This document shows, piece by piece, positions 1 through 41,712 of a stretch of DNA of 64,000 nt (the first letter of the stretch is position 1; every line of letters begins with the position of its first letter). Position numbers and translations under genes: made by a program. The notes below the pieces were generated by a model. The model was not told where the DNA came from and did no database searches. It saw nothing but the letters and a program-made list of their open reading frames with translations. Origin of the DNA: Neoarius graeffei (Eukaryota > Chordata > Actinopteri > Siluriformes > Ariidae); assembly GCF_027579695.1 (NCBI RefSeq), contig NC_083577.1:30041698-30105697 (forward strand). Direction: 5' to 3'.

Positions 1-3000
1 CCTGCGCCGAAGAAGGAGCGCCTTACAAGCGTCAATCGAGCTCGGAGACGCGAAATAGAGGAACAACAAAAGGTACGTTTAATGATTTAAATTTGATCAC
101 GAATTGTGACTAATCTTTGTTTTTCAACAGATTTGAATCATTATAAATCATGGATACAGTTGTTGTTGTTGTTGAGCGATAATAGAAGAAAGTGTGACTA
201 GTCTTACCATGCTTAATTAGATAATAGAATAACAATTAAACATCACTCTTCAATAGAATTAGGGTATTGGATGTCCATGTCATTTATGAAATTCTTAGTC
301 ATGTCAGGTCCTTTCTCCTTTGATAGAGATTATTTGTTGTGTTAATTTCATATATATTCATATTAATTCTTTGCTAAAATAATGTAGAAGAATTTTTTCA
401 TTTAATAACAGACAACGCCCTCGAAAGTCCAAAGGCTATCATTATCATCTTCATCAGAGGCAGCAAGCAGCAGAACGCGAAAGAAACAAAATCAAGAGGT
501 ATGATGATTTTTATGGGCTTATCTAAAAGTAAGAGTATGATATGGTCTAATAGCATTAACTTGGTCACATTGTAAATATATTATTTTTTCATTCAGTTTG
601 TTCATGCTTAAAAAAGCATGCTTTCCGAACAATATTAAATCACAGACAAGCTGTTGTTGACTGGATTGTTGACCAAATTCAGTCTCATCATGTGGATACT
701 GAACCTACCATTCATGTAATAAGACAGTGAATTTTGTTCAAAAGCATTCCCTGACAAGATATCATGCATGAGATTTACAAAAATTATAATATATGTGATG
801 AGTAATGAAACCAAAAGTGCAAAGTGACTTTACATATTTCTATGCTATTTCTCATTTTGATTAGCAACATTCCAGACTAGTTCTTCAACAAACCTTAGTA
901 AAACATGTCCACAGTGTTATTTTTATTTATATTTAATGTTTTTGATATTAAAATACTGTAAAGTTGAAGTAAGATATTATTGTTGATAATGTTGATAAAT
1001 ATTTGCTTATATCAAATTTTGACTAGCTGTTATTAAAGTTGTTATATGAATTCCAAAATATTTTAATGAGAGAGACTTTTTGACATATCTCTTTTTTTAA
1101 ACAAACATAAAGCTCATAATGACCTTGATAATTGCATAAGTTTAGTTTATCTTTGCTAACTGATCATTTATTGTATTTTGCACATACGTGTTGTTGTATC
1201 TTTTTAAAATGATCCGTTATCACATGATATACATTTATTAGTGCATTCATGTTACGCTGTATCCTACTGTGCCTAACTTTCCTTGTAAATTTGTGTATAA
1301 CTGTAATTCGTTACTTATTATTTCATTTCAGTACTTTTGTTTTTAGGAATACCCATTATTGGATATTATTTTACAAATCAGCTACAGCTTTATAGCTCAA
1401 CATATGATCATTTATGACAATTTAGACACACACCTTTCATATAATTTGAAAGTCAATACAAATGTCAATTTTATCATATATTTTGTTTGAAATTAATAAT
1501 AACAAATTAATCTCATCTCATCTCATTATCTCAAGCCGCTTTATCCTTCTACAGGGTCGCAGGCAAGCTGGAGCCTATCCCAGCTGACTACGGGCGAAAG
1601 GCGGGGTACACCCTGGACAAGTCGCCAGGTCATCACAGGGCTGACACATAGACGCAGACAACCATTCACACTCACATTCACACCTACGGTCAATTTAGAG
1701 TCACCAGTTAACCTAACCTGCATGTCTTTGGACTGTGGGGGAAACCGGAGCACCCGGAGGAAACCCACGCGGACACGGGGAGAACATGCAAACTCCGCAC
1801 AGAAAGGCCCTCGCCGGCCCCGGGGCTCGAACCCAGGACCTTCTTGCTGTGAGGCGACAGCGCTAACCACTACACCACCGTGCCGCCCATAACAACAAAT
1901 TAATATCCTATTTAAAAAAGGTTAGAAATTGATTTAACAAATTATATCCATATAAGCATTGCAGTTCCAATAGCTTCATAGATATTGTTTATTTCAGATC
2001 ACCACAGCTGTCTCGAGTGAAACACACACAGATGTTCCACAATCACCAGTGATAAGTCGGAGAACACCTAGGAAACACATCGATTATGGGCAGGGACAGG
2101 CATGATTCATGTCTTTCTGTCATCACTGTCATCAACAAGATGAAAGGTTGATGTTTGACCTGGAAATAAGTGACTATTTCAAACTGTACAGTAATAATAT
2201 ATAATATATATTTCATGATATATACCTGTGTGTGTTTAACTTTATGTGAAAATTAGTAAAAATGATAAATTTATTTCAACAAGATAAAACCTCTCGTTTG
2301 GAGTTTAACAAACATTTAAATTTTTATAGAATAAGCATTTCTAGGGTATTATTTTGATATTTGAAAATATTGGAGGTATGCGTTGTATATAGGTTCTTCA
2401 TATGACTAAGACTAATGTCATGTTTACTTTAAATTGTATTACAACCCTATATACAGTACACAGTTATCATCAGTGTTTATTATTTCTATTTCTGAAGGGA
2501 ATTGCACATCCTGTCTATGGCACACCTCGAAGGACTAGATTGGACCATCCATATTCAATTCCACTGACCTATAGAACATACGCCACACAAACTGAGCCTG
2601 TTTTCACTATGGAGAAAGCTTCATCAACTGGAGGTAGTCCACCAATCATAGAACAGTCAGCAAGCAAGAAAAGACCAGCTACAACACCAGAAGAACTAGA
2701 AAGCTCATCCATGAGTTCCCTCTCTGGGAGTGATGTGTCAGATGCAGATTTACAAATTGCTCAGGGTGATGCAGAATACTTTCTTTCAACAGAGGATGAA
2801 AGCACTATGAGTGAGCAAGATGAAGAAAGATTAGACCCTGTGGCTGTAAGGAAATATATAGTTTTTGAAGACTGCTTATCAGAACTGTTACGTTTTTGTA
2901 AAGACTGTGGCAAACCAGTAATTCAAAAATCAAAATTTGAAGTGGGCTCCTCAGTTGGATATAAACTGTTATGCTTAGAGGGACATAATTACATTTGGCA

Positions 3001-3845
3001 TTCACAGCCAATTGTTAACAAACTGCCGATAGGAAACCTACTCATAGCTGCAGCTGTTCTCTTCTCTGGCAACATGTACAGGAGGTTAGAGGAGTTCAGC
3101 AGAATCCTGAACTTGTCAATGTTCAGCAAACCGGTTTTTAACAAAATGCAAAAAAACCAGTTGTTGCCTGTGATACAAGATACCTGGAAGTCATCCCGAG
3201 ATGCAGCAATTGCAGAAGTAAAGAAAAATGCAGTGATTGTCGTAGGTGGTGATGGTCGAAGTGATAGTCCAGGATACACAGCCAAGTATGGGTCATACAC
3301 GCTGATGCACAGTGATGGTGTCAACATTCACGCAACAGGAAAGATAGTTGCCATGAATTTAGTTCAGGTTTCTGAAGTAAGCTGTGTTAAAAATATTCTT
3401 TTCATTATTTTTATCTAGCATCAATTTCTGAAATAAGATATTCATGATATTCCATATGTATGGTATGTTCATGTTTTGTTTTCATGTTCACAAGTATTCA
3501 CAAATGTACCTGATTATAAATAATTAAAAATTATATCTCATTTAATAATAGCATTTGGGTGCATTTTTCATTTCCTTTTAGGTAAAAAATTCAAATCACA
3601 TGGAGCCAGAGGGTTTGAAAAGATGTCTCCAAGACATGAAGGAGAAGGACTTGAAAATGGATCATTTGGCGACTGACCGGCATATAATGGTATCAAGTAT
3701 CATGAGAAAAGAACATCCTGGAGTAAGTTTGTCACTTAAAAAATTATTGAAATTATTCTACATTGTATTTATAAGATAAGTGTTACTAAGATGCAAGATG
3801 TATTTCTAATGTTTTCCTAAAATTGTAACTGTTAATTAATAACAT

Positions 3846-3927
<82 letters not shown>

Positions 3928-5492
3928 CAGTGTGTATATTATATATATGTATATTATATAGTTAGGTGTTCAGGATATAAAAATAGATTGTTAGGAAATG
4001 AACAAACATGCATTTTTATCTTTTTCCTATTTCTTGTGTTTTCTTATTGTGAATGTTTTCTTATTTCCTTACAGTGACGTAATTATTAATTTTAAATCAG
4101 TGTATTATTTAGAATTGCTGATATTTTTTTTTTCAAAGATTGACCATCAATTTGACATATGGCATGTGGCCAAAGGGGTTGTGAAAAGTTTAAGCAATAA
4201 GGCAAAGACAAAAATGTGCAGTGATCTCTCACCATGGGTACAGAGCATCTCAAATCATCTTTGGTTTTCATGTCACACATGTAATGGTGATGAAAAGGTG
4301 TTGCGGTAAGTATGTACATTACAATATGCTATCTTATCAAATTAAATATTGATACATACAAGTGTCATTGACAGACTTGAAAAATATATAAATATGTCAA
4401 TTTTCTTATACTTTTTTTAACTACATAACCTTATGTCACAGGCTATTATTATTATTATTATTATTATTATTATGTTTTTGTGCTTTAGGAACCTGTGATG
4501 TCCATTTTGTATATGACAGATTAAGAATAATGAAATTGTGTTGAAAATAATTGAAAATTAATTGAAATACATCACCATTTAAAAACTCATTTCGTTTTAT
4601 TACAGTGAAAGATGGCTGTCAATTTTGCACCATATAACTGACAAACATGAATGGTCTGGTAATGAGAAGGTTCATAAATGTGCACATCCACCACTTTCTA
4701 CAGAAGACAGGAAATCAATCAAATGGCTCAAGAAGCCATCACCTGCTTTTTCTGCATTGCAAGCAATGGTCACAGATGCAGGACTTCTAAAAGCCATGAA
4801 AAACATGACACACTTTTGTCACACAGGAGACCTGGAAGTTTTCCACAGTATGCTTCTCAAATACTGCCCAAAACGACATCATTTCCACTATGATGGTAAA
4901 ATTATTTGAATTATGTTACTAGTAATTATAAAGAGAGAATTATTTTGATTTTAAAGGATTTTATATATATAATATAAAATATAAAATAAAGGATAGATAT
5001 TGAATTAAAGATATATAGATATATGGATTTGGGTGTGTATAAACATTTTAACTGTCATTTGTAAACAAAGATTCCCTTTTTGCAACATCAAACACTCAAA
5101 AAGTATCACTATTATTCATATTTGAATATATCTGCACAGTCATCATAACTTGACATTTAGAACATAATCGAAAAATAATCCTTCAATATTTTCACTAATT
5201 TGTTAACACGCTGCTTTAATATTAATATTAAAATGTACATTTGTAATGATTGTTTTTTATAATTTTAGCGATGTATGGAAGACTGATGCTAGCAGCCATC
5301 GATTGGAACTCCTCAGAAAGAATTCCAAGACTTGACAAAGATGGAAATTCAACAGTGTCTGTTGTTTACTCCAGAAGAAGAAAGGATTTTGTCCTGAAGG
5401 GTAATTATGTCAGGAAGAAGCAGGGGCGTCGTAGTGGGGGGGGGGAAGGCGGACTGAGTTACCAGGGCCCCAAGTGGGGGGAGAGCCCTTGA
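1..5492 (+). CDS. DDE transposase-like multi-exon gene (Kolobok type, tentative), 5' end outside window, 3' end cut by a hAT
   Basis: Exons that fit by splice site and phase are 1-72, (412-499), 1998-2099, 2498-3376, 3582-3722, 4139-4305, 4606-4895 and 5269-5492. All introns use GT-AG except that after 2099, which would be GC-AG. The early exons are low-complexity and basic or serine-rich. Exon 2498-3376 holds a long acidic linker and then a globular part. Catalytic candidates are D in GGDGRSDSPG (about 3247-3274), D in LATDRHIMV (about 3671) and E in GDLEVFHSMLLKYCPK (about 4826-4870). DIWHVAKG lies between the second D and the E. This D-D-E plan with DSPG, WH..K and LE.FH matches transposase proteins I know as Kolobok-like in fish and cnidarians. 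A THAP finger, if present, lies before position 1. Exon 412-499 is 88 nt and would break the frame; skipping it keeps phase 0. The last exon runs 25 codons into the hAT at 5421. The AATAAA near 6958 would serve the uninterrupted gene. Confidence 0.65.
1512..1890 (-). mobile_element. tRNA-headed SINE (family A), copy 1
   Basis: Full copy in minus orientation inside the intron before exon 1998. The head, at the right end, carries A-box-like TGGTGTAGTGG and B-box-like GGTTCGAGCCC. The tail, at the left, is made of ATCTC repeats. The 11-bp direct repeat aacaaattaat lies at 1501-1511 and 1894-1904. This is the same family as the copies at 8209, 12844, 18439, 24932, 35958, 37334, 43635 and 48780. 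Confidence 0.85.
3846..3927. repeat. (TA)n microsatellite
   Basis: Long uninterrupted TA run, preceded by a short CA run, in the intron between exons 3582-3722 and 4139-4305 of the transposase-like gene. An (ATT)n run of about 30 bp follows at about 4443-4472 in the next intron, and another TA run lies at about 8149-8178. Confidence 0.9.
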
Positions 5493-6570
5493 GGAGTCTG
5501 TAATTTTATTTTCCTTTAAATATCAATACCATTTAAAGATCACAATATATGTTGCTAACTAATGTAAATGTAATGTTTTGGGTAAATAAATCGTTTGATT
5601 AATGGATTGAATTGTGTGTCCTATCCTACATATAGTGTCTGGGGACAGCCCCCCCTTGCACGAAATGGTTTAGTCCGCTTTCACCGGGCTTTTTTAACTA
5701 AGCGCATTTAACGTAGCGTTCATTCTGCTGGAGCAGCGCATGCGCATTGTAGGCGATCTGTGCTATAGAAGATGATGCACAAGAAAACAAAATCCGTTTT
5801 TTAGAAACGAAAAGAGAGGCAGGAAAGAGACAAGAAAAGAAATGAGGGAAAGCAACTGCTCGCAAACTTCTTTCCCAAGAAAGGTGAGCCCAAGTGTGAA
5901 AGCAAATAGCCTACATTAAATGAACACCCGCGGTTATAAATGCTTCAATACCACCGCGATTGTCAGTGCTAAAAACTGCACAACACAAAATTAGAAACAA
6001 CATGATGCCTTTTTTCTCTGCATTGCAATCGAAAATTAAATTATATTGGGCCATAACGTAATTAGGCTAATAGCTGGGGTATAAATTCCAGTGTTTAGCA
6101 CTTTGTGGAAGCCTGTTTTCTTTTTGCCCTTTTTAAAATGAAAAATGACGAGAGTCAAGTTTTGTTTACCTTTCATTCTAAATGAAGTATTTTGTTAATG
6201 TAGAAATCTGGAAATGGCATTTCTTTTATGTAATAAATAAGCTACTTGATAAAAATCTGTTCTCTTCAGCCCAATGCAAAGGTGCTCAATTTTCATGCAG
6301 GCCTATTATGTTTGGCGACCTTTGGTGGCATTTACTGTTACAACTTTTAATCATTCTGCAAATAAAACAAAGATTCAGTGACGTATTGTGTGATTAGGGT
6401 TTTTTATTCATTTAAGAGTTGTTAGATTAATGTGTGGCTACATAACTGACTGGACTGGTAGTACGCCCTTGTTGTTAGATACTTTCAGCATTGTTAACTG
6501 CTGAGTTTTTTTTGGGGGGCCCATGGCCACTGCTTGTGCATAGGGCCCAGAATTTGGTGCAACGCCCCTG
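5421..6570. mobile_element. Non-autonomous hAT transposon inserted in the last exon of the transposase-like gene
   Basis: Ends are CAGGGGCG and CGCCCCTG, flanked by a perfect 8-bp target duplication GGAAGAAG at 5413-5420 and 6571-6578. Both are hAT hallmarks. The 1150-bp element holds only a decayed trace of a transposase N-terminal exon (about 5770-5885, lysine/arginine-rich, ending before a GTGAGC donor). Its sibling, at 12282-15902, preserves that exon better. Being inside coding sequence, it replaces the host gene's C-terminus with a short element-encoded tail and a stop at 5492. Confidence 0.92.
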
Positions 6571-6746
6571 GGAAGAAGACAGATGTTATGACCAAGCTGG
6601 CAAAGACTGTTTACATGACCCACAAGGAGAAGTCGTCTCTATCACCATTGAAACGCCCTGCCCTACCTAAGAATGTGGCTCCTGTGGAAAAACCTGACAA
6701 ACAAACAATGCTGTCAAAATATAGGTCACGTATGAAGCGCTCATGA
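6571..6746 (+). pseudogene. Severed 3' end of the transposase-like gene's last exon
   Basis: After the hAT and its target duplication, an open frame resumes for about 58 codons: KKTDVMTKLAKTVYMTHKEK, then a lysine- and proline-rich tail ending in RSRMKRS and TGA at 6744-6746. Its composition continues that of the exon before the insertion (RRRKDFVLKGNYVRKK). AATAAA follows at about 6958. The next stretch to 7230 shows nothing else. Confidence 0.7.
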
Positions 6747-7230
6747 ATTTACAGGTCAGCTTCATTTATTATTTCTCCAAACATAGCCTAATTTGTTAGA
6801 AAAATATTCCTCAGTGTTAGTTAGTATTGCTTTTCAAGAGTTTGTAAAGGAGAAAACTGCATTTCTAAAAATGAAATGTTACTTTCCTATGAAGCTTAAA
6901 GTTTTCTAGAGAAGAAATGACAACTTGTGTTCCTTGACAGTTATTCATGGATAGTTTAATAAAGGGAGTTTAAATGTTAAAGGGTCAAAATGGGTCATAG
7001 TGCTGTGTAATGTTAGGAGTAATTAAAATTGTAAATACACATCTGTTATGTATTTTCATTTGCATGTGTTTGTGGAAAAATTGAATAAACTGTGCAAGTG
7101 ATAATAGAACATGGGCATGTATATATTTCTTATGTACCTAAGTGAGAAATTAGAACATAACCAATTTCCCAAAGCTGTAAATAATGAATTTGCATAAATA
7201 AAGAACCCACATCCTTCCAGTTTAGTCCAC

Positions 7231-7531
7231 TGTAGAGCTCTCTTAGGTGTGGGTGGAGCACAGAGGACGGCAGGACAAAGCTTCAGGGAACAACAGGCTT
7301 TTATTGCCAGACTTCTCAGTATAACAATTGTTCTTATTTGGTAAATACACACACGCGCTGTGTTCTTGTCCCGGGAAGAGCTCTCCTCTGCCTCCTTAAA
7401 TAGGGCGCGGTTACTGGGAAGACACACAAACACAGGTTAATTACCGTCAGGTGTAGTGATTCTGCCACTCACCTTCCCTGGCTCCGCCCTCCCGTCACAG
7501 ACCGGCGCTTGACCACGCCCCCGCTGCCACA
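7231..7531 (-). repeat. Solo LTR of a Gmr1-like Ty3/gypsy element (fossil)
   Basis: The 301-bp stretch begins TGTA and ends CCACA. It matches the LTRs at 57892-58200 and 62498-62806 along its length, with more divergence than those two show from each other, so it is older. The 5-bp target repeat TCCAC flanks it at 7226-7230 and 7532-7536. No internal element remains, as expected after recombination between two LTRs. It sits between the two convergent genes of the 1-9934 unit. From 7537 to 7846 only AT-rich DNA is seen, presumably the 3' UTR of the minus-strand gene. Confidence 0.85.
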
Positions 7532-7846
7532 TCCACAAAGAAATGTTTGTTTTTACATAATAAATACGTTATGCTTTTATCTTTAAATGTCTTGTAAATA
7601 AAGAGGTTTTAAAAATATTACAGGTTGATATAAAAGAATGTTCATTGAAACTTAAATTTTATTTTGAAAGTGTTACATTATCTTTTTGATACAAGAACTA
7701 TTCAATGAATCTCCAAACATTTCTAAAAGCAGCCAAAATATATGTACACAGCAAAAATAATAATTCAATACAGATTTTAAATTTCATGCCAAAAGCTGCA
7801 ACAAAAATAAGAATGAATTATTTCAATTTATACAAAAAGTTTATCA

Positions 7847-8144
7847 TTAATGAGAGTCATCATCATCCCCTGACACATAGGCCTGGTATTCTTCCCCTTC
7901 TGCCTTGGGAAAATTTCTTCTAATGTCGTGGACTGCACATGAAGGTATCACCTTCCTCTTGTTTGGTCCCAGCTTCCCATGCACCCACCAGGTAAACTGG
8001 CGATATGCTGCATATCGAAGTTCTCTAATTTGAAAATTAATTAAAAAAAATTTTCTAAAAACTTTATATAGCAAGTAGGTAGTGTCACAAGTCGTATAAA
8101 ATATTATGAATTTTGTAAAGTTGCTGTTATTGATAAAATTTGTG

Positions 8145-8183
<39 letters not shown>

Positions 8184-9718
8184 CATGTATGTGGAATTTA
8201 TGCTACATCTCATCTCATTATCTCTAGCCGCTTTATCCTTCTACAGGGTCGCGGGCAAGCTGGAGCCTATCCCAGCTGACTGTGGGCGAAAGGCGGGGTA
8301 CACCCTGGACAAGTCGCCAGGTTATCACAGGGCTGACACATAGACACAGACAACCATTCACACTCACACCTACGGTCAATTTAGAGTCACCAGTTAACCT
8401 AACCTGCATGTCTTTGGACTGTGGGGGAAACCGGAGCACCCGGAGGAAACCCATGCGGACACGGGGAGAACATGCAAACTCCACACAGAAAGGCCCTCGC
8501 CGGCCATGGGGCTCGAACCTGGACCTTCTTGCTGTGAGGCGACAGCGCTAACCACTACACCACCGTGCCGCCAATTTATGCTACATATTTTAAGAATATT
8601 AAACCTTGACATGAGATTCTGCAAGCTATATGATGATATTAAATACGATTCAGTAACTGTATATCTTTTAAAGACATGATATGTTTAACGAAATATTAAG
8701 TAGAACAGCTACCTACGTCCACCATATTTCATTTTTATTTACCTGTTTGATGGTGGGTTAACCTTCCAACTGTCTCCAACTACATTGTTAAGACACACCA
8801 ACACATTTTGTAGAACTGACCTGGTCAGACACAAAAGCTTGAAATCCTCATTGTATGTGATGCATACTGTGCTTTCTAAAAAGAAAAATGAATGAAAACA
8901 GATTAACTCAATGAATACAATAAGGAAAGATTGTTTTTTTTTTTTAATTTTTAACAATAAGATATACTAACACACAAGTCCCAAAAAGCATAATTAACCA
9001 CATAATATAAACCTGCACACATTAGCATTTATGGTCAGTAAGACACTTTGTTTACTCACACCAACAGTAGGCTTATAACTGCATGACTAGAGCTACCATA
9101 ATTGATTATATATCTAAGCGATCTATTGTTATTATATGTAGATACTGATGTTATGATGGGGGATTATTACAACATCGAATTGTTAACACTATATCTACTA
9201 GTGAATGTAGCACTAGCCCTATGTATTCGGCCGGGTATCGTTGACTTAGATACACGATACACGGCTGAATACATGAAACTGTATTAGAAACATAATCTAA
9301 CGTACTGAAAATGCTACATGTACAAATAATAATTGTTATTGTAAGAAACCATCTGAATCAACATTCACATATACTACTTTTAAGAGATCTGTCTTTCACC
9401 TGATGCATTTTCCGATGGTGCTGCAGAGGATTTTGTGCTAGGTCTCTCATGGCAGCATAAACATTCCTCTGGTCGCTGCAAAGTCACGGTGGAACACAAG
9501 CCACACTCACACCAGTCCGTGCTCGTCAGCCGGAAAGAAATGTCTTCATCTATCTTCTGAACCCATACGACTTCGTCATCCAAATCGCTTTCTTCATTGA
9601 CTGTTGTCTCTTCCTCTCCAGGTTTTCGTCGAGGCTCGAACATATAGCCACCCAACTCCAAAAAATCGGTGTCAGTATCGCTTGCACATGAACTTGCGCT
9701 ATCGCTATCACTCGCCAT
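7847..9718 (-). CDS. Stand-alone P2X7 ballast-domain-like protein, 209 aa, three exons, intact
   Basis: Exons on the minus strand are 9718-9400, 8875-8743 and 8024-7847. Junctions are GT-AG, phases fit (1, then 2), and 630 nt give 209 residues plus stop. Residues 1-60 are acidic and serine-rich and include GYMFEP at 24-29. A cysteine cluster follows: C70, C72, C75, C86, C88, C89 (WCECGLC...CLCCHE). Then come [19 protein letters not shown] (111-129), ELRYAAYRQ (152-160) and [19 protein letters not shown] (176-194), with an acidic end. From memory of human P2X7, its C-terminal cytoplasmic ballast has the same blocks in the same order (CxCGxC, CIT, VLQ, CAYR, ILPSC, IR.EFPK.EG). No membrane span or channel part is present, so it is not an ion channel. 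Homologues of this lone domain are common in fish and invertebrates; their role is unknown. A SINE (8209-8572) lies in intron 2. Start chosen at the first ATG of exon 1. Confidence 0.87.
8209..8572 (-). mobile_element. tRNA-headed SINE (family A), copy 2
   Basis: Full copy in intron 2 of the P2X7-ballast-like gene. The direct repeat aatttatgctacat lies at 8195-8208 and 8573-8586. The SINE has the same orientation as the host gene. Confidence 0.88.
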
Positions 9719-9750
9719 CTTTTATGAAGGGCGGTCAGTGGTGGGCCGCG

Positions 9751-9758
9751 TGACGTCA
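9751..9758. promoter_or_regulatory. CRE-like palindrome TGACGTCA upstream of the P2X7-ballast-like gene
   Basis: A perfect 8-bp CREB/ATF site 32 bp upstream of the minus-strand start codon (9718), in a GC-richer patch (9725-9765). Position and composition suggest a short, TATA-less promoter; no TATA box is seen. This is sequence match plus inference only. Confidence 0.4.
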
Positions 9759-9934
9759 CGCAGTAGATCAATATGGTGGAACGCATCTAAGCTGAGCTCA
9801 GTGCAAGCCCATATTATTAAAAGTGAAAAGATACTGTTATGCGGTCTGTTCTTTCTCTATAAATTCCATGATCGATTACTTTATATATTTATCTATCTAT
9901 TTGTGGTGATTTTGTACAAAAGTTGCTTTATCCT

Positions 9935-11297
9935 TTAAGCTGATATGTGATTGATCTAACGGTAAAACAGGACGAGGGCTTGAGAACCTTTTTGACACGT
10001 TGAAGGGTTACAATTTTACTTGGCAACAGAATGTATCTGAATTCTGATTGGTTGTTGTTATATTATTGCCCTTCTGTTGTCTTCTTGAGCCCAGAGCGGA
10101 GGGGGGAGGGGGAGGAGGGAGTGACAGGGTTCTACAGAGAAAAGTTTTTGCCCCCGCTTTCAAATGAAGCCCCTCGAGAACCAATCAGTTCAGCGGATGT
10201 GTGTTCTCGGTATGGAACGTTTTCAAAAGAGAGGCGGGAGGAACCAAACATTTCTGATTCAGAAGGCGGAGGCTGTTTTGCTTATTACGTGAAAATGTTT
10301 GAGAGCGAATATTCATGAGTGAATTTTGCATGCTGTTTCGCCCAGTGGAAACCTACAGGAACCATTTGTGTACCTCGATTTTTTTTTTTCTTCAATCAGA
10401 AATATTGGTCGGGACACGCCCATACCGTCCATACCCAATTCTACACCTATGCAGTAAGACTCTTAATTCTGTGTGTGTGTGTGTGTGTGTTCAGCACCTG
10501 TAACTCTGGACCCCAACACTGCTCATCCTGAACTCATTGTATCTGATGATCTGAAAAGTGTGAGACGCAGCAAAAAGAAACAGAAACTTCCTGATAATCC
10601 AGAGAGATTTGATAAATATTGGGATATCCTGGGATCTGAGGGCTTTAACTCAGGGACACACTGCTGGGATGTGGAAGTTGGAGACGGTACGTGGTGGTTT
10701 GTGGGTGTGATGACAGAATCTGCTCAGAGGAAGGGGAAGATATTCTCCAGAAGTGGAATCTGGTGTGTGCGGGATTATGGTGATAAATATTGCGCAGTTT
10801 CTACACCACATGCATTCACTCAGCTCTCAGTAGCACAGAAACTCCAGAGGATCAGAGTGAAGCTGGACTGGGACAGAGGAAAACTGTCATTCTCCGACCC
10901 TCTCACTAACACACACTTACACACTTTCACACACACATTTACTGATAAATTACTGCCATTCCTACATGTTAATCATAAAGAATCTCCTCTAAAGATCCTC
11001 CCACTTGAGTGCTCTGTAAGAGTGAATCAGATCAGTTAGCATTGATGTTGTTTTATTCCAGTTCATTAATAAAATACTGCAGATTAAAAGATTAGTGTTC
11101 TTTATTTAAGTCTTTTTTTCCCCCTTTTGGAAACCCTGAAGCGCACACTGTGATTTTTTTCAAGGGGATAAACTCAAAATATTGACAGAATATCTTGAAA
11201 TAATGAATTAACTCAAATAATAAGATATCTTAAAATTATATTATGATAGCTTTTGAAAGTATGAGGAAGTCAAAATAAGCGAATTAATGATATACTG
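9935..11297 (+). repeat. Segmental duplication, copy 1 (partner at 38104-39480)
   Basis: Intron DNA, a B30.2 exon and 3' flank match 38104-39480 over about 1.36 kb, with long identical runs. Intron sequence is retained upstream of the exon, so this is a DNA-level duplication and not a retrocopy. The left edge is the TTAA where the 1-9934 element is proposed to end. Confidence 0.85.
10495..11039 (+). CDS. Orphan PRY-SPRY (B30.2) terminal exon of a TRIM gene
   Basis: The acceptor TTCAG after a GT repeat opens a 545-nt exon in phase 1. It encodes PVTLDPNTAHPELIVSDDL, the usual start of the PRY part in fish TRIM proteins, then the SPRY core with GTHCWDVEV, WFVGVM, SGIWCV, RIRVKLDWDRGKLSFSD and a C-terminal LKILPLECSV. 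It ends in TAG at 11039, followed by AATAAA near 11068. The expected length is about 180 residues and it is intact. No RING, B-box or coiled-coil exons lie upstream in the window; those could sit before position 1, beyond the inserted 1-9934 element. It is a paralogue of the last exon of the TRIM gene at 24484-39231. Function by family: ligand-binding module of an E3 ubiquitin ligase. Whether this copy is expressed is unknown. Confidence 0.85.
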
Positions 11298-24483: not shown

Positions 24484-39231
<14,748 letters not shown>

Positions 39232-39480
39232 CATTGATGTTGTTTTATTGCAGTTCATTAATACAATACTGCAGATTAAAAGATTAGTGTTCTTTGTGTA
39301 AATCTTTTTTCCCCCTTTTGGAAACCCTGAAGCACACACTGTGATTTATTTTTTCAGGTGAATCAACTCAAAATATTGACAGAATATCTTGAAATAATGA
39401 ATTAACTCAAATAATAAGATATCTTAAAATATATTATGATATATTTTGAAAGCACGAGGAAGTCAAAATAAGTGAAATAA

Positions 39481-41712
39481 TGACACACTGTCTTGAAATA
39501 ACAAGGTATTGACTCAAAATAATTACTCAGCGTTGAATTAAAATCACAAAAGTGTGTTTAAATGCAGAATGAGCTGAAAAGAATTTTATTTTATTTATCT
39601 TTTAAATAGTTTAAATAAACTGAGAATTTGTTTTAGTTTATTCTCAGTAAATGTCTTTACTGTATTTGTACTTGTTTGCATTTGCTGTTAATCTTGGATT
39701 AAGTGTGTGTGTGTGTAACTGTGCAGTGGAGGAGAATTCAAGCTCTAAGTTTCCCTCCACCAGCAGTTTGTGGTTTTGTAAAGATCAGATGGATTTGTAT
39801 GTTAATGCTGCATTAGGTGATGATTCACAAGTTTAAATCAATTCTGAGTGAAATAAATTCACTTTGTTCATTCTGATATTAAACACTGTTAATCTGCAGA
39901 ATAGGACAATTAAAATATGCACAAATAAATATATCTGTAATCTGTGTAATGTTTATTATTAACAGTTAAAATGTTCATGATGTGCACAGTTATATATTTG
40001 TACAGATGTGTGCAGTGGTGGTTGTTATCTTCATGATTAGTATCAGGGATGTGTTCAGTTTAATGTGTGTGTAAGTGATCACTGAGAGGATGTGGAAGAG
40101 AGAGAGGCAGGTGAGAGAGTCAGTCATTAAAGGTGTTAAAAGCAACAATTTTCTCAATGTTCTCTATCGTCATTTAACCGCAAGTTATATTTTACTCTCA
40201 TCCATTATCCCTGGCTGCTGTATCATATGGGTTAAATCATGACAAGATCTGTCTCGTCTATAATAAATAAAAATTAAACATTTAGGCCTAGGTATTTTAT
40301 TTTTGTCCCATGTCTTCCCACTACACAGTGTTCCAACTTTTTTGGAATTGGGGTTGTATTATTATTACAAAGCTTTGTTAAATACTTGATTCTGATTGGT
40401 TTACCGTCTGTTTTTTTCATGTTGTTATGGACCATGACATTACCAGAAGCAATAAAATCATTTTAAAACAATATCTTTTGTCAGATTGTTGAGTTTTTTT
40501 AGTATGTAACTGTGTAATATGTGGGATCATGTATAGTGAGCCAATTCTTATCGCAAAATAAAAGCCCTTCAGGGTGATTCAAGACCTTCTCTGCTTTGTG
40601 TTGGACTCCTGCATCACCCTGTCAGGGTGTATTTCATGATAATAACCAGCTTACTGTACATTATCGCTCACTCATTTACATGAACTTAATAATCTTTGAC
40701 CTAAACTAACCTGGAGCCATGGGTTCTTTGCAAACGACCACTCACAATGCAAAAGTGCTGATGGTTTGTGCTGCTTACAGCTGTTCTAATAGATCAACCC
40801 TGGGGGAGAAAAAGAAAAACAAGGGCTACAGAAATGGACAAATTTCCCCATCCAGCTACCTCTGCTAAACAAACGAGACCATTATTGAGTACAAACACGA
40901 TCCAGTTTTCCTCTTACAATTCATGTTTGAATTTTACCAAAAGGTCTGTTTTGTGTGCCAGTCTTCTGAACTTTTGGGATTAGTACATTTTTTTGAATGT
41001 AAGGTCAGAGATTTTGATTTGCAACACCGTTCATGACAACAGTCATGATGACAGCAGAATGTTTGAAGAGAAACAGAGATCATCAGTGTGTTTAAACTGC
41101 GAAACCTTTTAAAACTTGACTTGGAAACCTGACAGAATGGTGTTTTTAAGTGTCCAAATACTTTTGGGGGCCTTGAATAAGATTCCACAACCATCCCTAG
41201 TTGGACTAGTTTGACAGGTACTGTGGGTTTTTCCCTATCTTTCAATTCAATTCAGGACTATAAGTAGATTTTTATGAGGAACACTAATTTTGAAGCTGTA
41301 CTGCCTTTCAGATTTTTCAACTTTATGTCATAAATAGAATTTTCCCCTGACACCCAATTATTTTTTGGTTAGTGGAGCAAAAGCTACTGAATTCAAATCA
41401 CAGACTTCCAATTTTATTAGTTTTTTTTTAAATAGAACAATGAATGAACTGAGGGCCATGTGGCGCTAAATTCTCTGGTATTTTTTCCTGCTTCACCATG
41501 ACCCAATTCAAGATACTATGTCATTCATCACGTGGTGGGCTTTCCTCATTCTTGCAAGGCATTGCGGAGTACAAATTTGAAACAGAAGAGAAAAATGGAG
41601 GATGTGAGTGTGCAAATGAAATGTGAAAGACCGATTACAGTAACGGAAAGCGAGAAGAAAAGACATTATGTTGTGAAGGAAAGGAAAAGAAGAAACCTTT
41701 ATTTTATGAGAA
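39481..41712. other. No gene recognised; one repeat fragment
   Basis: AT-rich DNA downstream of the TRIM gene. A fragment at about 40318-40362 ends in TTTTTGGAATTGGGGTTGTA, a common fish transposon terminus. The small open frames (39651, 40768, 40934) show no domain. Confidence 0.4.

Follow-up and report, generated by a model that had tools for sequence, protein, structure and literature searches.

A convergent ballast-like gene related to the P2X7 tail in a two-gene Kolobok transposon of a sea catfish

How does a gene for a stand-alone protein resembling the cytoplasmic ballast of the P2X7 receptor come to lie beside a transposase gene in a sea-catfish genome? The window analysed here, a 64,000-nucleotide stretch of the Neoarius graeffei genome (C9:30041698-30105697), contains two convergent multi-exon genes to the left of a TTAA at 9935–9938, and both sets of exons noted in an initial annotation of the stretch are present. 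That annotation proposed that the genes form a single Kolobok-like unit and that the P2X7 tail may have come from transposon cargo. Rump et al. 2020 (PMC7016195) proposed the capture of an ancient ballast exon; in the accessible main text of that paper the strings 'transpos' and 'Kolobok' are absent. Kojima and Bao 2022 (PMC9587614) reported that the KolX protein of Kol0 Koloboks has the P2X7 cytoplasmic ballast fold, that membership of lone ballast proteins in Kolobok families had not been pointed out before, and that P2X7 arose via fusion of a P2X4-like gene and KolX. Among the papers listed, no further open-access one linking ballast and Kolobok was found, as judged by titles and the beginnings of abstracts. 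Thus, the central inference of the initial annotation is supported by the data below and is not new, since the derivation of P2X7 from KolX was published in 2022.

The locus is almost certainly a two-gene (Kol0) cut-and-paste DNA transposon of the Kolobok superfamily. We examined it against the window's own genome (2.34 Gb, 38 contigs). The whole element measures 10,610 bp and extends from window coordinate –675 to 9934 (1–9934 within the window), with TTAA on either side; the bounded unit is therefore real, while position 1, taken earlier as its start, is merely the edge of the window. Its left end was found in the 20 kb leftward of the window, at –675 (L009 9325), where the terminus starts with AGGATAAGGCAACTTTTG and is immediately preceded by the left copy of the TTAA target-site duplication (–679 to –676; L009 9321–9324), the right copy being at 9935–9938. 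The first 130 bp and the reverse complement of the last 130 bp (the right terminal inverted repeat, 9805–9934, minus strand) agree at 127 of 130 positions, so that the proposed leftward extension did return a matching inverted end with its TTAA. The termini, AGGATAAGG...TTATCCT (AGG...CCT), satisfy the 5′-RR/YY-3′ rule (PMC9587614). The bare motif AGGATAAAGC, by which the inverted end had been predicted, was rejected as a mark of an element end because six of its eight exact matches in the window fall inside a common SINE-like repeat; the left inverted end exists, and it is the 130-bp repeat that carries the evidence. Repeat comparison also placed SINE-like repeats inside the element itself, within a transposase intron (1511–1890) and within intron 2 of KolX (8206–8575).

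The plus-strand gene encodes a THAP-DDE transposase whose D, D, DxxH and E residues lie on separate exons. Exon 1 (–308 to 72, of which 1–72 are in the window) encodes an N-terminal THAP domain (PF05485, E = 7.6e-15, profile positions 1–87 of 87) and ends in AVPTLF. It is followed by exon 2 (412–498, in frame, borders read from the sequence), exon 3 (1998–2099), exon 4 (2498–3376) with the first catalytic D at 3251, exon 5 (3582–3722) with the second D at 3675, exon 6 (4139–4305) with the DxxH as DIWH at 4154–4165, and exon 7 (4606–4895) with the E at 4835; the C/DxxH thus lies between the second D and the E. A Cys/His cluster (SCHTC ... HKCAH), spotted by eye only, begins in exon 6 and runs into exon 7, between the DxxH and the E, and is a candidate for the zinc finger that characterises Koloboks at this place. 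The last coding exon is split into 5269–5420 and 6571–6746 (stop TGA at 6744–6746) by a 1,150-bp insert at 5421–6570 with an 8-bp duplication, GGAAGAAG. This insert, which we take to be hAT-like, opens with CAGGGGCG and closes with its inverse, the inverted match covering only about the first nine bases. The D-D-E transposase of the initial annotation therefore has its catalytic residues in place in a gene that is not intact. Because the later insert breaks the transposase gene, the window copy is probably no longer autonomous, with the KolX frame remaining open.

Two side observations concern this gene. After exon 3 the sequence reads GC where GT would be expected (donor read from the sequence, window 2099–2101); this represents either a GC-AG intron or damage and counts against the two-gene Kolobok reading. 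The public predicted protein LOC132892136 (P0036) is 100% identical to the transposase exon across 35% of the query, and its final 43 residues are the antisense of KolX exon 1 (window 9429–9557); the model is an annotation artefact that fuses the broken transposase with antisense ballast sequence.

The second gene, KolX, lies on the minus strand, convergent to the transposase. Its three exons, 9400–9718 (start ATG at 9718), 8743–8875 and 7847–8024 (stop included), have AG/GT borders and encode 209 amino acids with no internal stop, confirming the intact stand-alone ballast-like protein described earlier. The spliced protein matches Pfam P2RX7_C (PF20478, E = 2e-19), and PF20478 alone, with no P2X channel domain. 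It also matches four distinct solved P2X7 chains (E from 5e-8 to 1e-7) and retains all but one of the eight ballast cysteines seen in those chains when aligned (C70, C72, C75, C88, C89, C111 and C180). KolX thus shares PF20478 and these seven cysteines with the P2X7 ballast and Nanor-like lone proteins (PMC7016195), and differs in being without the channel domain and in having alanine 181 in place of the eighth cysteine, the last of the SCC motif. Across 124 aligned rows (window KolX and 123 proteins), cysteine occupies positions 70, 72, 75, 88, 111 and 180 in 117, 116, 117, 115, 123 and 124 rows, respectively, and position 181 in 68. Judged by sequence, the second protein would have the ballast fold, as in Kol0 KolX, and its gene lies inside the same inverted ends as the transposase. 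When five KolX exons of different families were compared, changes were third-position-heavy in 10 out of 10 comparisons (for example, dN 0.23 against dS 1.97 over 48 codons); as dS was saturated in 7 of the 10 and the exons had been picked for being alike, this suggests protein-level constraint on KolX and goes no further. A comparison of the KolX alignment with viral contigs gave eight pattern matches, none of which was confirmed.

The sequence to the right of the element had been described as the counterpart of a paralogous empty block at 38103. That block turned out to belong to a dispersed repeat found on many contigs (40 copies scored of 804 candidates), of which it is an unbroken copy. 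Among 10 of these 40 copies examined, eight have the same left half and extend past the TTAA without a break, one (L081) has the same left half without TTAA, and one (L076) has another left neighbour. To the left of the Kolobok lies another element, made of tandem repeats, and a genome search for left and right flanks meeting at one TTAA gave zero matches with up to two mismatches allowed. Thus, the block confirms the right edge only and provides no clean empty site, and since the expected junction was not found, the case for insertion rests on the ends of the element and on its recurrence. The dispersed repeat (tested at 9936–10290) adjoins a PRY-SPRY (B30.2) coding stretch at 10467–11036, both being inside a block (9935–11297) that is repeated at 38103–39490; spread of this repeat may bear on the expansion of PRY-SPRY immune-type genes.

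Recurrence was measured over the whole genome. Matches to the transposase (85) were merged to 80 loci, and matches to two ballast queries (65 and 113) to at least 131 ballast-like loci, drawn from the best-scored candidates. Thirty-six of the 131, counting the window's own, have a Kolobok transposase match no more than 25 kb away; some of these pairs belong to the same family, so that they are not all independent. The pairs involve 36 separate transposase loci and are convergent (tail-to-tail) in 36 of 36 cases, and in 34 of 34 at distances of up to 15 kb; when loci were placed at random on the same contigs, 2000 trials gave a mean of 0.37 pairs and never more than 4. With the first ballast query alone, 17 of 65 loci were paired, all convergently (random mean 0.22, maximum 3); the 25-kb limit was set after the matches had been seen, and limits of 10, 15, 25 and 40 kb give 13, 15, 17 and 18 of 65. 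The remaining 95 of the 131 loci have no transposase match within 25 kb in a list that may miss divergent transposases, and several of those inspected are short fragments. In a second family (L032), both genes are enclosed by their own TTAA-flanked inverted ends, TTAA-AGTAGTTTTAGAATTT...AAATTCTAGAACTACT-TTAA (TTAA-AGTAGTT...AACTACT-TTAA), 8,192 bp in length; for a copy of this family in L033 the left end was not found. In a 10-Mb region of contig C1 (85–94 Mb, G000), similarly scoring ballast-like genes and transposase fragments occur together, none of them within 25 kb of one another. Co-occurrence at other loci, proposed earlier as a check, is therefore borne out in this one fish genome, and shared ends together with recurrence support the ballast protein as the second gene of a Kolobok-like transposon.

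Compared with described systems, the element shares with Kol0 (Kolobok-1_XT type) the TTAA duplication, RR/YY termini, a DDE transposase with DxxH and a ballast-fold second gene (PMC9587614). The species and family are new with respect to that paper, and the present analysis describes the exon structure, the 130-bp ends and the convergent order; the words 'convergent' and 'opposite' are absent from its accessible main text. With the Xenopus Kolobok XKol (PMC6004289) the element shares the THAP domain, the DDE, TTAA and ends that begin with AG. XKol has an AVPTIF box where AVPTLF is found here, its full lengths of about 7–14 kb are comparable to that of our element, and the accessible main text of that paper contains neither 'P2X' nor 'second gene'. 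What we add to the published picture is the species, the full anatomy and the convergent order across 36 pairs.

How the window KolX relates to P2X7 tails was addressed with two unrooted maximum-likelihood trees, built from 44 and 30 proteins chosen among 123 ballast proteins, with the window KolX and three P2X7 fragments added to both. The smaller tree also included a P2X7-type ballast frame at C18:32477933-32478418, which is 62% identical to a minnow protein and has one stop. This frame points towards a transposase represented by pieces that carry D, D, DxxH and E. The last of these pieces to match ends 1.3 kb from the frame; stops occur in the pieces too, and a search for inverted ends of the pair over 14 kb found no TTAA pair that reached 13 of 18 matches. 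In both trees the window KolX falls in a half with cnidarian and metagenomic proteins, and the mammalian P2X7 tails in the other half, together with lone proteins of bony fish, chimaera, lungfish and bivalves. The split of the halves has 100/100 support in the 30-protein tree; in the 44-protein tree the root fork is weak (71/64) and the branch leading to 18 rows of the KolX side is supported at 100/99, with one row (P0129) changing sides between the trees. The C18 frame groups with the fish lone proteins in the 30-protein tree. The P2X7 tails sit on a long branch, and the trees do not resolve its attachment point inside their own half. In these trees, then, the window KolX is outside the half of the P2X7 tails and belongs to a different ballast subgroup. 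A search for the host P2X7 gene did not locate it, the two weak genome matches being a broken frame and an altered-motif fragment. The proposal that transposon cargo gave rise to the P2X7 tail, already made in PMC9587614, is compatible with the trees and not proven by them; it gains support here, and the KolX of the window is not on the P2X7 side. There is a hint that the P2X7-like ballast subgroup, a different one from that of the window, is transposon-linked as well.

With the trees unrooted and the place of the P2X7 tails inside their half unresolved, the direction of transfer could also be the reverse, with Koloboks having acquired their ballast domain from a gene of animals, either P2X7 or a Nanor-like one. 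In divergent Kolobok families the ballast gene occurs in a single, convergent arrangement, and the ballast domain is present in cnidarians and bivalves, while typical P2X7 was found in bony fish and tetrapods and in neither agnathans nor cartilaginous fish (PMC7016195). Against this background we consider reverse capture quite improbable.

The copy number of the window's subfamily bears on another alternative. A search with KolX exon 1 yielded eight other close copies at 93–97% identity (among 150 scored of 951 candidates). In each of the eight, the alignment covers the TTAA-flanked right end, KolX exon 1 in whole or in part, and a left part of the element; in 20 kb around each there was no match of more than 300 bp to the middle of the element except SINE-like repeats. 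The TTAA-flanked left end is also present in three of them, and in the other five the terminal pattern did not find it. From their structure, the eight appear as deletion derivatives spread over the genome would. The other 141 of the 150 scored matches (of 951 candidates) are distant KolX-like frames at 33–39% identity. A first impression that these represent a second gene family was dropped: of three examined, two share an 875-bp repeat at 98.6% (L027 4594–5468 and L029 4644–5518, with TTAA at both ends in both copies checked) and the third matches it at 86.9%. The repeat holds a KolX exon 1-like frame below the Pfam cut-off (17.0 versus 23.5 bits). For the transposase core, the one close match is the window itself, and identity is at most 58% in the remaining 84 of the 85; KolX exon 3 likewise has one, followed by a match at 67% (65 matches; 150 scored of 241 candidates). 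Among the matches listed, the window thus has the sole full-length copy of its subfamily, and two whole copies cannot be compared.

Such a solitary copy, with a KolX open over three exons and a broken transposase, is also what would be seen if KolX here, or the pair, were a domesticated host gene kept for the fish, as has been proposed for Nanor. The transposon ends are nevertheless still identical at 127 of 130 positions, which suggests a recent insertion, and the open frame may simply be young; domestication thus appears still less probable. Finally, a degraded transposase lying by chance beside an unrelated ballast gene, a notion to which the broken transposase gene and the other mobile elements in and around it lend some colour, is rejected as having a negligible probability, given that both genes lie between matching TTAA-flanked inverted ends that the genome holds 35 other convergent pairs where 0.37 would be expected, and that a second family repeats the arrangement.

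We therefore return to the two-gene Kolobok. Judging by its family, ends and catalytic residues, the THAP-DDE transposase is expected to attach to the inverted ends, excise the element and integrate it at TTAA. The tail-to-tail second gene would provide KolX, a zinc-ballast protein that stands alone and is akin to the tail of P2X7. Its presence in divergent Kolobok families in one fixed order, along with the apparent protein-level constraint, points to a part in the transposon's own cycle, accessory or regulatory, as the most likely role of KolX. Tentatively, and rating it somewhat below an even chance, we propose that two old ballast subgroups both exist as convergent Kolobok cargo, and that the P2X7 tail would derive from the second, SCC-type one, still transposon-linked in the catfish in one case, the C18 locus. 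If KolX serves transposition, the P2X7 ballast would owe its binding of zinc and guanine nucleotides to an accessory function of a transposon.

The 36 convergent pairs provide independent within-genome support for the published claim that the tail of an inflammatory ion channel came from a transposon gene. The present work also narrows the search for its donor to a ballast subgroup other than that of the window.
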